This document shows, one piece after another, positions 9,489 to 13,574 of a stretch of 64,000 nucleotides of DNA. The stretch is taken from the NCBI RefSeq assembly GCF_015711605.1, contig NZ_JABTEZ010000001.1:958001-1022000 (forward strand). The letters run 5' to 3'. The notes under the pieces were generated by a model, which had not been told where the DNA came from, ran no database searches, and was given only the letters and a program-made list of their open reading frames with translations. This DNA is from Planomonospora sp. ID67723. Its GTDB lineage: Bacteria > Actinomycetota > Actinomycetes > Streptosporangiales > Streptosporangiaceae. Made by a program: the position numbers and the translations under genes. Within the stretch, counting starts at the first letter, position 1. Each line of letters starts with the position of its first letter.

Positions 9489-10907
9489 TCACACCGCCGG
9501 AAGGCGCGCGCGGAGGCGGGCTCCCGGCGGTCCCGGGGCGACCGCCAGAGTGCCGCCGTGCCGCCGTGCGATGTCCCTGGCGATCGCCAGCCCGAGCCCG
9601 GAGCCGCCCGCGTCCCGGTCCCTGGCCTCGTCCAGCCGGGTGAACCGGTCGAAGACCGCCTCGTGGTGCTCGGCGGGGATGCCGGGCCCGTCGTCGCACA
9701 CCTCCAGCACGGCTCCGCTCTCGCCTGCGGTCAGGCGGACGGTCACCGCGGAGTCCGCATGCCGTACGGCGTTGTCCACCAGGTTGGCCACCAGGCGGCG
9801 CAGCTGCCCTGCCGAGCCGCGGACGACCACATCGGCGGCGACCTCCAGGCCGACCCGCACCTCCGGCCGGGGCCGGGACCGGGCGGCCTCCTCCGCGGCG
9901 ACCTGGCCCAGGTCCACCTCCTCGTGCCGGTCCGGCTCACCGGCGTCCAGCCGGGCCAGGAGCAGCAGATCGGAGGTGAGCGCCTGGATCCGCTCCACGT
10001 CCGTCAGCGCCTCGGCGGTCAGCGGCCCGGGCGGGGCCAGTTCCATGCGGGTGCGCAGGATCGCCAGCGGGCTGCGCAGCTCGTGGGCGGCGTCGGCGAC
10101 GAAGCGCTTGTGACGGCTGACGGCCGACTCCAGGCGGTCGAGCGTGCGGTTCATGGTCTCCGCCAGACGGGTGATCTCGTCGCGGGCCCGCGGCACGGGG
10201 ACCCGGCGGTGCAGGTCACTGGCGGTGATGTCGGCCATCTCCGCGCGGATCGCCGAGACCGGGGCGAGGGCCCGGCCGACCGCGAGCCAGGTGAGGGCGG
10301 CGACCAGCAGCAGCAGCGCGGGGATGCCGGGCAGCAGCACGCTCTTCAGCGTCTCCAGCGCGGCGCGCGCCGGTTCCAGGGAGGCCCTGGCCTGGACGAG
10401 CAGCGGGCCTTCGGCGGTGTCGACCGGTGCCGTCGCGGTGACATAGGCGCCCGCGGGGGCCCACTGCGCGGCCGGTACGGCGGGCACGACGGTGGCGCTG
10501 AACTCCGCGGCGGGGGCGCCGGTGAGGCCGGGAGCGCCGTCACCGGACACGGTGGTGCTCTTCCCGCCGGGCGCTGCGGTGGTCTTCCCGCCGAGCGAGG
10601 CGGCCGGATCGGGGTTCTCCACGCCGCTCCGCAGGACGACCGTCACCCATCCGTTCGTGAGCGGTGCGTCCTCTCTGAGGATCTGGACGTCGGGGTCCAC
10701 GGCCCCGCTGACCGTGTCGGAGGAGAGCGTCAGAGAGGAGAGCATCCCGGCCGTGACGTCGGCGCGCCGCCCGGCCTCGGCGACGGCGCTCTCGGCCAGG
10801 CTCCCGCCGAGGACGCCGGCCAGCACGGCCGCGGCGACCCCGAGCGCGACCGCGACGATCGCGGTCGCCGCGAGGGTGGCCCGGACCCGTACCGACAGCC
10901 GTGACAT
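9489..10907 (-). CDS. HAMP-type sensor histidine kinase
   Basis: 472 aa. TM1 is about residues 10-32, an extracytoplasmic sensor region about 33-188, TM2 about 191-211, HAMP to about 263, then HisKA with the phosphoacceptor His275 in FVADAAHELRSPL and an HATPase domain (NLVDNAVRHA N-box, DDGPGIP, GSGLGLAI). The sensor region is Ala/Gly/Pro-rich with no recognised fold. It starts one base after the stop of the response regulator gene, so the two are co-transcribed. Its stimulus is unknown; the divergent secreted protein may be part of the circuit. Confidence 0.9.
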   Translation of the reverse strand: MSRLSVRVRATLAATAIVAVALGVAAAVLAGVLGGSLAESAVAEAGRRADVTAGMLSSLTLSSDTVSGAVDPDVQILREDAPLTNGWVTVVLRSGVENPDPAASLGGKTTAAPGGKSTTVSGDGAPGLTGAPAAEFSATVVPAVPAAQWAPAGAYVTATAPVDTAEGPLLVQARASLEPARAALETLKSVLLPGIPALLLLVAALTWLAVGRALAPVSAIRAEMADITASDLHRRVPVPRARDEITRLAETMNRTLDRLESAVSRHKRFVADAAHELRSPLAILRTRMELAPPGPLTAEALTDVERIQALTSDLLLLARLDAGEPDRHEEVDLGQVAAEEAARSRPRPEVRVGLEVAADVVVRGSAGQLRRLVANLVDNAVRHADSAVTVRLTAGESGAVLEVCDDGPGIPAEHHEAVFDRFTRLDEARDRDAGGSGLGLAIARDIARRHGGTLAVAPGPPGARLRARLPAV

Positions 10908-10908
10908 C

Positions 10909-11577
10909 TCAGGCCTCCAGCCGGTAGCCGGCGCCGCGCACGGTCACCAGGGAGGACCGGCCGAACGGGGCGTCGATCTTCCGGCGGAGCGCGCTGACGT
11001 AGACCTCGACGATGTTCGGGTCGCCGTCGTAGGAGAAGTCCCAGGCCTGGGCGAGCAGCTCGCTCTTGGAGACCACCTCGCCCTGCCGGCGGGCCAGGCC
11101 GTGCAGGACCGCGAACTCCTTCGGGGTGAGGGCGATCTCCGTCCCGCCCCGGCGGCAGCGCAGCCCCGCCGGGTCGACGACCAGGTCGCCGACCGTGAGG
11201 GCGACCGGGCGGGCCGTGCCGCCCCGGCGGATCAGCGCGCGCAGCCGGGCCAGCAGCACCACGTAGGAGAACGGCTTGGACAGGAAGTCGTCGGCTCCGG
11301 TGTCCAGGGCCTCCGCCTCGTCGTGCACCCCGTCCTTGGCGGTGAGCATCAGGATGGGGGTCCAGTTCTCCGCCTCGCGGAGCCTGGCGCAGACGGTGTA
11401 GCCGTTCATCCGGGGCAGCATGACGTCGAGGATGACCACGTCGTAGGCGTTCTCGGTCGCCATCCACAGCCCGTCGCGCCCGTCGTGGGCGACGTCCACC
11501 GCGAACCCCTCGCCGGTCAGTCCGCTTCTCAGCAGGTCGGCCAGGCGCTTCTCGTCCTCCACCAGCAGCACGCGCAT
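10909..11577 (-). CDS. OmpR/PhoB-family response regulator
   Basis: 222 aa. The receiver has the acidic pair E7/D8, phosphoacceptor Asp51 in VVILDVMLP, the conserved Thr in LMLTAKD and Lys in LSKPF. The C-terminal winged helix (LTPKEFAVLHGLARRQGEVVSK, IVEVYVSALRRKID, VRGAGYRL) is of the OmpR type. The start at 11577 is the first Met of the receiver; a longer frame to 13068 is read-through. It is first in a two-gene operon with the kinase. Upstream lie 11-bp-spaced CTTYAGG direct repeats, the expected operator architecture, suggesting autoregulation. Confidence 0.92.
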   Translation of the reverse strand: MRVLLVEDEKRLADLLRSGLTGEGFAVDVAHDGRDGLWMATENAYDVVILDVMLPRMNGYTVCARLREAENWTPILMLTAKDGVHDEAEALDTGADDFLSKPFSYVVLLARLRALIRRGGTARPVALTVGDLVVDPAGLRCRRGGTEIALTPKEFAVLHGLARRQGEVVSKSELLAQAWDFSYDGDPNIVEVYVSALRRKIDAPFGRSSLVTVRGAGYRLEA

Positions 11578-11599
11578 GCCTCCAGCCTGGCGCACGCCA

Positions 11600-11649
11600 C
11601 CTAAAGCCAACCTGAAGACGGGTTCGGGCGCCTTCAGGCCCTCTTCAGG
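11600..11649. promoter_or_regulatory. Paired OmpR-type direct-repeat operators between the response regulator and the secreted-protein gene
   Basis: On the minus strand CTTCAGG (11611-11617) and CTTTAGG (11600-11606) are spaced 11 bp start to start and face the response regulator. On the plus strand CTTCAGG at 11632-11638 and 11643-11649 are again spaced 11 bp and face the secreted-protein gene. OmpR-family regulators bind tandem direct repeats with about 11-bp period, so one regulator probably acts on both promoters. Confidence 0.65.
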
Positions 11650-11760
11650 TGCCGGGCGGGAGTGTGTGCCCGGCGGCTCGTCCCGACCGGCTCGCGACCG
11701 GCCGGGACGAGCGCCGCCGGACGACCTCGACCGATTCCGACCGACCAAGGAGAACCGAGC

Positions 11761-12246
11761 ATGCGGATCCGTTTCCTCGCCGCCGCCGTGGTCACCGCGG
11801 GAGCCCTCATGGCGACCCTGACCGGTGCGGCCAACGCCGACACCCCCGACACCCCCGGCACTCCCAGCCCTCCGCCCTCCGCCGAGAAGGGCTTCTCCAT
11901 CGTCTGCGAAGCGGGCGGGGACCATCCCCACATCACGGCGCACAAGCTCACCGACGAGGAGATGAAGGAACTGGCGGCCGAGGGGCCGAAGATGACCGTG
12001 CGCGTCCAGGCGGTGCCGGCCGACCCCGCCGGGCCGGGCGGCGCGCCGGGGACTCCGCAGGCCGGACACGTGGTGGTCACCGGGCCGGACGGCATCGTGA
12101 AGCGGCTGGCGAAGCTGCCGGAGGCGATCGAGATGACCCTGGCGGCTCCGGCCGAGCCCGGGGAAGCCGGCAACCCGGACATGAAGGTGGAGGTCGTCCC
12201 GGCCCCCGAGGAGGCGGCCGCCGCCTGCGCCGAGAAGCAGGAGTAG
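11761..12246 (+). CDS. Secreted small protein of unknown function, probable two-component target
   Basis: 161 aa from ATG 11761, which has AAGGAGAAC upstream. The Sec signal peptide (MRIRFLAAAVVTAGALMATL) probably ends near ANA-DTP, followed by a Pro/Thr-rich linker. The mature part has only two cysteines (IVCEAGGDHPH and AAACAEKQE), which may form one disulfide, plus acidic Pro/Glu-rich stretches. I recognise no domain. A 72-bp leader separates it from OmpR-type repeats, and it is divergent from the response regulator, so it is likely regulated by that system and may feed back on the sensor. Confidence 0.75.
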   Translation: MRIRFLAAAVVTAGALMATLTGAANADTPDTPGTPSPPPSAEKGFSIVCEAGGDHPHITAHKLTDEEMKELAAEGPKMTVRVQAVPADPAGPGGAPGTPQAGHVVVTGPDGIVKRLAKLPEAIEMTLAAPAEPGEAGNPDMKVEVVPAPEEAAAACAEKQE

Positions 12247-12458
12247 CGCGCGGCGCGGGCCGTACCTGACGGGGACCGGTACGGCTCCCGCCCTCGGCTC
12301 CGGCGTGCGGCCGGAGGCCGGGCGGGCGGAGATCGGGCCGGTCGGGACCCGCGGATCCGGGCGTGCGGCTCGGCTCCGCGGGTCCGGTGGCGCGGGCCCG
12401 GGCGTGCGGCCCGGGCCCGCGTTCCGGGAGGGCGGAGGCGGGGGCCCGGGACGCCGGG

Positions 12459-13574
12459 TCAGTCCTCGGGGAAGGACGGGTGCGGGCCCAGCGCCCAGTA
12501 CTCGTAGAGGCCGTGGCCGACCTGCGGACCCTGCGCGGCCCCCGAAGGATCGTCGTACTCGAAGCGGCCGACCGCGTCGACCAGGCCCCACATGCGGGCG
12601 GCGTCCTCCGGGAAGGTGTGGGTGACGCCCTGCACCACCGGGCCGGGGCCCTGGTACATGCCGTGCTTCCAGTCCGGTTCCAGGCCATACCCGGTGCCCA
12701 CCATCAGGTGGACCGGGAGGATCGGGGTGCAGTGCACGTCGAAGGGCTTCCCGCCCGGCGGGGAGAAGGAGATCGTCGCCTCCCGGACCTCCCGGGTGCC
12801 CTCCAGATAGACCGGACGGTACTCGGGGCGTCCGAGATACTCCTGCTCGCCCTCCCGGTCGGAGCCGAAACCCCACACCCGGACGGCCTCCTCCAGCACC
12901 CGGCGGCCCTTCTCGTCCTCCTGGATGATGCAGAGGATGGCGTGGTCGTCGAACTGCATGGGCGTGTAGAGCCAGTAGAAGGTCCCGGCGTTCTTCGCCT
13001 GGATGCCGGGGGGTTCGGGCTCGCCCACGGGCCGGACGCCCCAGGAGCGGTCGCGGGTGCCCTGCCACCGGTCCGGGGTGACCTCGATCCGCTCGTCACC
13101 GATCATGATGTGCCCGGTCCACCGCCCGGTCTGGGCCATCCGCGCGGAGTCGAACACGACGCGCTCCTGCCAGCGCAGGAAGTGGCGCGGCTCCAGGGTG
13201 GCCGGGACCGTCCCCTCCCAGGTCAGGTCGTAGGAGAGCCCGTGCTCGGTGGGGTCGAGCACGACCCTGAGCCTCCGCAGGCCCTCGATCACCTCGACCC
13301 GGAACGGGCCGATCTCGGTGTTCATCCGGTCGTCGCCCAGCTCCCGGGAGGCACGGACGACCCGGTGCACGTCCCGGTGGCGCACGCAGGCGAAGGCGTC
13401 GGTGACGCCGAGGTTCGGGTACTGGCCGACGCCGATGATCAGCATCAGCTCGTCGGACCCGGCATGGCAGTTGAAGTAGTAGCGGTCGTAGAAGTTGCGG
13501 TCCGAGGTCGTGACGTGCCGCATCACCTCGGGTGACTGGTGGACGGGGTGGTCGTCGAGCGGTGACAGCGTCAT
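12459..13574 (-). CDS. Conserved protein of unknown function (lipocalin-like/CrtC-type beta protein?)
   Basis: 371 aa, no signal peptide or membrane segment. It is strand-rich with many Trp/Arg (GRWTGHIMIGDERIEVTP, RDRSWGVRP, YWLYTPMQFDDHAILC), and the RDRSWGVRP segment recalls proteins with a split lipocalin-like fold such as AttH/CrtC relatives. Family assignment is by impression only. Just upstream is a perfect palindrome CAAGCGCTTG (13609-13618), a pattern often bound by TetR regulators of lipid or steroid metabolism, which hints at a lipid-like ligand or substrate. Confidence 0.7.
   Translation of the reverse strand: MTLSPLDDHPVHQSPEVMRHVTTSDRNFYDRYYFNCHAGSDELMLIIGVGQYPNLGVTDAFACVRHRDVHRVVRASRELGDDRMNTEIGPFRVEVIEGLRRLRVVLDPTEHGLSYDLTWEGTVPATLEPRHFLRWQERVVFDSARMAQTGRWTGHIMIGDERIEVTPDRWQGTRDRSWGVRPVGEPEPPGIQAKNAGTFYWLYTPMQFDDHAILCIIQEDEKGRRVLEEAVRVWGFGSDREGEQEYLGRPEYRPVYLEGTREVREATISFSPPGGKPFDVHCTPILPVHLMVGTGYGLEPDWKHGMYQGPGPVVQGVTHTFPEDAARMWGLVDAVGRFEYDDPSGAAQGPQVGHGLYEYWALGPHPSFPED

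Follow-up and report, generated by a model that had tools for sequence, protein, structure and literature searches.

The question raised by this locus is whether a single response regulator controls both its own operon and the divergent gene of an exported protein, and whether that protein in turn acts on the sensor kinase. Both had been suggested in an earlier note on the window (the whole stretch of 64,000 nucleotides from Planomonospora sp. ID67723 analysed here), which pointed to direct repeats between the two transcription units and took the exported protein as a candidate ligand or feedback partner. The features on which the argument turns are the following.

9489-10907, minus strand: sensor histidine kinase, 472 aa (Pfam HAMP, HisKA, HATPase_c)
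10909-11577, minus strand: OmpR/PhoB-type response regulator, 222 aa (Pfam Response_reg, Trans_reg_C)
11584-11589, minus strand: -10-like hexamer CAGGCT, predicted regulator promoter (A2 and T6 in 76/77 loci)
11600-11617, minus strand: direct repeat facing the regulator, CTTCAGGTTGGCTTTAGG (exact pattern match)
11621-11627, plus strand: GGTTCGG, candidate for a weak third half-site, 11 bp before the second repeat
11632-11649, plus strand: direct repeat facing the secreted gene, CTTCAGGCCCTCTTCAGG (exact pattern match)
11660-11665, plus strand: -10-like hexamer GAGTGT, predicted secreted-gene promoter (A2 and T6 in 74/76 loci)
11747-11752, plus strand: ribosome-binding site AAGGAG of the secreted gene, from sequence
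11761-12246, plus strand: exported protein, 161 aa, signal-peptide-like start, with C49 and C156 flanking a hypervariable stretch

As the earlier note had described, CTTYAGG occurs as a direct repeat twice, once toward each gene, and the half-site starts are spaced by 11 bp in both repeats. The two copies at 11600-11649, one per gene, are the only exact matches to CTTYAGG-N4-CTTYAGG in the 8,336,304-base genome, whereas the reversed pattern, taken as a control, gave no match in the same genome. When one mismatch was allowed, five genome sites were found against one for the control, and all three of the extra one-mismatch sites lack a -10-like hexamer at the set spacing. With up to three mismatches the window contains 10 sites against a mean of 6.0 in shuffled sequence, and 13 of 100 shuffles reach 10; because this count is not above the shuffles, the signal is the exact pair. 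Across 60 genomes, our own included, there were 15 exact sites in 11 genomes (reversed control, 7), eight of them adjoining a relative of the regulator, and the remaining seven, which do not, correspond to the control level. A chance origin of the repeats was rejected, given their uniqueness in the genome together with their conservation at 77 loci. Elsewhere, one locus (L012 in genome G016, 1501-1529) carries three tandem CTTCAGG half-sites with 11-bp spacing and no such regulator nearby, possibly by chance. For the candidate third half-site, RTTTCGG-like columns are partly kept among relatives.

A search of 297 genomes of the family returned a relative of the regulator at E <= 1e-95 in 85 genomes (86 matches), and the main analysis covers 77 of these matches from 20 genera, the other nine being without fetched flanks. 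Orthologue here means this E-value threshold only, and the rows that are 76-78% identical (L127-L130) may include close paralogues. The regulator-facing repeat was found with at most three mismatches in 77/77 loci (63/77 exact), and in all 77 it begins 22-24 nt upstream of the start codon. The core of the second, outward-facing repeat was detected in 76/77 loci and is exact in 20/77, so conservation in relatives, which the earlier note had set as a check, holds for both sides. The distance between the repeats is 31-32 bp in 67 loci and 25 bp in six, and three single loci have 61, 67 and 83 bp; the core at 67 bp, in L094, has no -10 and is probably a chance match. When each genus was represented by one locus, the regulator-side repeat was present in 20/20 with at most two mismatches and the regulator -10 in 19/20, while the second repeat was present in 19/20, with its -10 in 18 of those 19.

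The few loci in which the divergent gene differs are instructive about the second site. In L094 and L127 we found no such secreted protein, and these loci are also without a second repeat plus -10 where one is usually located. L078 and L125 have a different lipoprotein in the slot; L078 retains the second repeat and its -10, and in L125 a -10 follows an additional repeat at the same distance, suggesting that the site serves whichever gene occupies the slot.

Exactly 10 bp past each repeat stands a hexamer whose second base is A and whose sixth is T, the two bases that are conserved in actinobacterial -10 elements; at the other offsets examined (18 to 35) such an A..T pair occurs in at most 6% of loci. 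These hexamers are an addition to the picture given in the earlier note. In PhoB-type activators the binding site replaces the -35 element at the same spacing to the -10. The regulator-side hexamer has the consensus CANNCT, and since the start codon follows only 6-7 nt past it (6 nt in the window), the regulator mRNA is predicted to be leaderless. The transcript of the secreted gene would be expected to start near 11672 on the plus strand; this gene has a leader and a ribosome-binding site, and in relatives a script found a Shine-Dalgarno-like match at the chosen start. A strong inverted repeat (11676-11712; 15-nt arms, 93% complementary) lies in this predicted leader and is without an Rfam match. 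No Rfam RNA reached its gathering score in 11000-12500, and no intrinsic terminator was detected in 11400-12500. At base 4 of the proximal half-site, 92% of the regulator promoters have T and 99% of the other promoters have C, the latter figure including some wrong-register rows. This difference, together with the stricter repeat on the regulator side, suggests that the two repeats differ in their affinity for the regulator.

Among the literature matches listed, the nearest published parallel is CopRS of Corynebacterium glutamicum. In the available part of that report (PMC3140484), CopR binds a direct repeat between copRS and the divergent cg3286, which encodes a secreted protein without assigned function; the site TGAAGATTTnnTGAAGATTT, whose other strand shows two CTTCA copies with an 11-bp offset, is located 266-285 bp from the start of cg3286 and is reported as the only one in the C. 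glutamicum genome, and both sides are activated. The same source places cg3286 in a resistance operon with a multicopper oxidase and gives copper as the signal. The CTTCA core, the 11-bp period, the divergent secreted protein and the sole genomic location are all found here too, a likeness of arrangement that was compared by description and is not proof of family membership; the two systems differ in that C. glutamicum has one repeat where we see two. The ORFs listed around the locus include no evident copper gene. Assignment to the NCBIfam heavy-metal (CopRS/CusRS/SilRS) two-component family was rejected, the scores being 233.4 bits against a cutoff of 279.2 for TIGR01387 and 194 against 292.55 for TIGR01386.

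Other published regulators resemble this one in part. According to the accessible text, PhoP of M. tuberculosis binds as a cooperative dimer to 7-bp direct repeats separated by 4 bp (PMC4832192); the repeat geometry of this PhoP/PhoB type is alike, but the sequence differs, and here there are two back-to-back repeats with a -10 for each. The Streptomyces pair CutRS (PMC12802291) is of OmpR type and tied to exported proteins; two conserved extracellular cysteines of its kinase matter, and CutR, with the motif TAWATAAA, acts as a repressor from a site 17 bp upstream of the start. The cysteines are in the kinase there and in the exported protein here, and our divergent gene does not encode a protease, whereas CutRS has targets of the htrA type. 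A CutR-type site does not appear to be the conserved element here, which consists of the CTTCAGG repeats. The motif given for MprA of C. glutamicum in the accessible text (PMC12113857) differs from the CTTCAGG repeat, and a description of the module itself was not found among the matches listed in the open-access literature.

The model that we favour is that the phosphorylated regulator would bind each head-to-tail repeat as a dimer, and each repeat would stand in for a -35 element at 10 bp from the actinobacterial -10 downstream of it. The regulator would thereby activate both its own operon, with its leaderless mRNA, and the divergent gene. The result would be a largely self-contained signalling module; no further convincing site was found in the genome. 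We infer binding, activation and the dependence on phosphorylation from sequence; activation of both promoters in particular is predicted from the -10 at a fixed 10-bp spacing on both sides. That the regulator controls both promoters, as the earlier note had proposed for the operon and the secreted protein, appears highly probable given the conservation of both repeats and of their spacing to the -10.

The stricter conservation of the regulator-facing repeat (63/77 exact against 20/77) could also be read to mean that the two repeats form a double site for autoregulation only, with the secreted gene transcribed from an unrelated promoter. However, the second repeat has a -10-like hexamer of its own that points at the secreted gene in 74/76 loci, no sigma-70-like promoter was detected in 11400-12500, and the two loci without the protein lack the second site with its -10, so that we find this explanation hardly credible. 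It is likewise conceivable that the sites repress and that the regulator blocks one or both promoters, because published actinobacterial regulators do either according to the position of the site, CutR being an example in the available part of its report (PMC12802291). Here the repeats lie just upstream of, and not over, the -10-like hexamers and neither promoter has a recognisable -35, which fits activation; in addition, the accessible text on CopR has it activating from a similar repeat (PMC3140484). Repression therefore seems improbable to us.

The product of the divergent gene is 161 aa long and starts like a signal peptide, in agreement with the secreted protein that the earlier note had placed there. 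The protein (P0001) has no Pfam or NCBIfam match; among 44 relatives scanned, seven families were each matched by one member and none recurs, and neither P0001 nor these 44 relatives gave a PepSY, LolA or RseB match in the Pfam scan. A similarity search found homologues in 21 of the 297 genomes, of which 17 are convincing (E <= 2.3e-7), and all 17 adjoin a regulator relative; the four weak matches (L037-L040, E 3e-4 to 9e-4), none of them beside the regulator, were set aside. Locating the protein by gene position finds it more widely than the similarity search, with the reading frames of relatives chosen by our own scoring rule and the cleavage point by a crude AxA rule. The neighbouring gene beyond it (12459-13574, minus strand) encodes a 371-aa protein with no Pfam match above cutoff.

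Cysteines were counted in 73 of the 77 loci. The four left out were L094, which has no divergent candidate protein, L127, whose candidate has no signal-like start, and L078 and L125, in which the slot holds a different lipoprotein with five cysteines that is similar between the two genera. The mature part contains exactly two cysteines in 71/73 loci, the exceptions being L058 with four and L129 with six, and the whole protein does so in 64/73; in the alignment the first cysteine is present in 73/73 and the last in 70/73. Between the two cysteines runs a variable stretch rich in Ala, Pro, Gly and Glu, and the motif [VIL]PA.P was found in 55/72 secreted proteins against a shuffled mean of 3.3. 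The AlphaFold model of the secreted protein was poor (mean pLDDT 52.6), so no fold search was made with it.

In the sensor system itself, every domain of the regulator and of the HAMP kinase scores above its Pfam cutoff, in agreement with an OmpR/PhoB make-up. The kinase outer domain has no recurring Pfam family, only scattered single matches among 42 relatives, and the first member of the outer-domain alignment matches 0 Pfam families. In a fold search with an outer-domain model from L075 (mean pLDDT 85.7), the best match had an E-value of 0.93 and none reached E <= 0.001. Cysteine is absent from 64/72 outer domains, and in the four loci without the two-cysteine protein the outer domain is shorter (p 0.013, n = 4).

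To compare the two parts, we used 72 loci, L080, in which the reading frame taken for the kinase was wrong, being left out besides the four named above. Median pairwise identities were 0.84 for the regulator, 0.69 for the kinase core, 0.35 for the outer domain and 0.28 for the secreted protein, which makes the last two the fastest-changing parts of the module. After linear control for the regulator and the kinase core, their divergences were still correlated (partial r 0.32), and within-genus shuffles of the secreted proteins gave a mean r of 0.11 (sd 0.02), with 0/1000 reaching 0.32. Because the control is linear, with no independent species tree, and the shuffling also breaks shared descent, which may be incompletely controlled, this co-divergence is suggestive only. 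A general strong similarity of the secreted protein to its own kinase outer domain was rejected, z against shuffled sequence being above 3 in only 7/72 pairs (median z 0.7). The excess similarity of matched pairs had a within-genus p of 0.0018 over all genera and 0.33 in Nonomuraea (the largest), 0.07 in Streptosporangium, 0.04 in g34 and 0.16 in g66. The motif [VIL]PA.P occurs in 12/72 outer domains (shuffled mean 2.4, largest 8), and in all 12 loci it is also present in the secreted protein, where about nine would be expected if the two were independent.

Among related regulators the slot is taken by other proteins. A midpoint-rooted tree of 48 regulators contains a clade of 25 rows (support 100/99), made up of the representatives of the 20 genera, four loci from a different family (f19), which carry two-cysteine proteins, and L139, a long branch whose place in the clade is unsure. 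The adjoining clade of five rows, with weaker support (94/72), has a divergent PepSY protein in three (L142, L143, L155); the intergenic regions of these three contain TTCAG repeats. A separate clade of nine rows (99/95; L163, L164-L166, L146, L151-L153, L156; regulators 65% identical) has RseB/LolA/DUF2092-like proteins in the divergent slot, an assignment for which four of the nine were Pfam-scanned, two passing (L151 as MucB_RseB, L165 barely as DUF2092) and two failing, and the remaining five were assigned by eye. L163 is the second copy in the Planomonospora genome itself (contig C2), and its intergenic region has CTCAG-type repeats. In several other rows the divergent partner is unclear or unassigned. 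The PepSY or RseB/LolA-like clades, with regulators 63-68% identical, thus likewise have an extracytoplasmic protein in the divergent slot, from which the two-cysteine protein differs in matching none of PepSY, LolA and RseB. PepSY and RseB proteins are extracytoplasmic modulators.

Our two-cysteine protein would then fill the slot that PepSY or RseB/LolA-like proteins hold in related clades and, less certainly, might act outside the membrane on the kinase via the equally variable outer domain, most probably as feedback. A ligand or feedback role, as raised in the earlier note, is plausible in view of the slot proteins of related clades, the hypervariability of both parts and their correlated divergence, and we judge it so mainly because PepSY and RseB modulators occupy the slot in those clades. 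That the protein is a feedback partner acting on the kinase we would put at somewhat below an even chance. Almost evenly balanced is the other reading, in which both promoters are regulated but the secreted protein is a mere output with no action on the kinase, such as a protein of the cell wall or one with redox activity, and its variability is the drift of a disordered, low-complexity chain. The low-confidence and mostly unstructured AlphaFold model, the Ala/Pro/Gly/Glu-rich composition and the fact that a matched secreted protein and outer domain are rarely more alike than shuffled sequence all agree with a mere output, as does the divergent secreted protein of C. glutamicum CopRS, which belongs to a resistance operon in the available part of that report (PMC3140484). 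Less easily reconciled with it are the two cysteines kept in 71/73 retained loci, the PepSY and RseB/LolA-like proteins in the slot of related clades and the residual co-divergence with the outer domain. We consider less likely than not the more specific idea of a two-cysteine protein dedicated to its own kinase as an extracytoplasmic partner, with co-evolution of both hypervariable parts. Taken as a whole, the model of dual activation, with feedback as its most likely but not certain part, seems to us likely.

These results give an exact and testable promoter map for an unstudied actinobacterial system, consisting of two sites, two -10 elements and one leaderless start, and they bring out a group of fast-evolving exported proteins in which gene position reveals what a similarity search largely misses. 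Should the idea of a dedicated partner hold, the circuit would close on itself, with the sensor system and its partner as its targets, and the swapping of partners (two-cysteine, PepSY, RseB/LolA-like) would be a general design rule for these actinobacterial two-component systems. If the partner role is true, the co-evolution of a sensor with its partner would be open to study across dozens of natural pairs.
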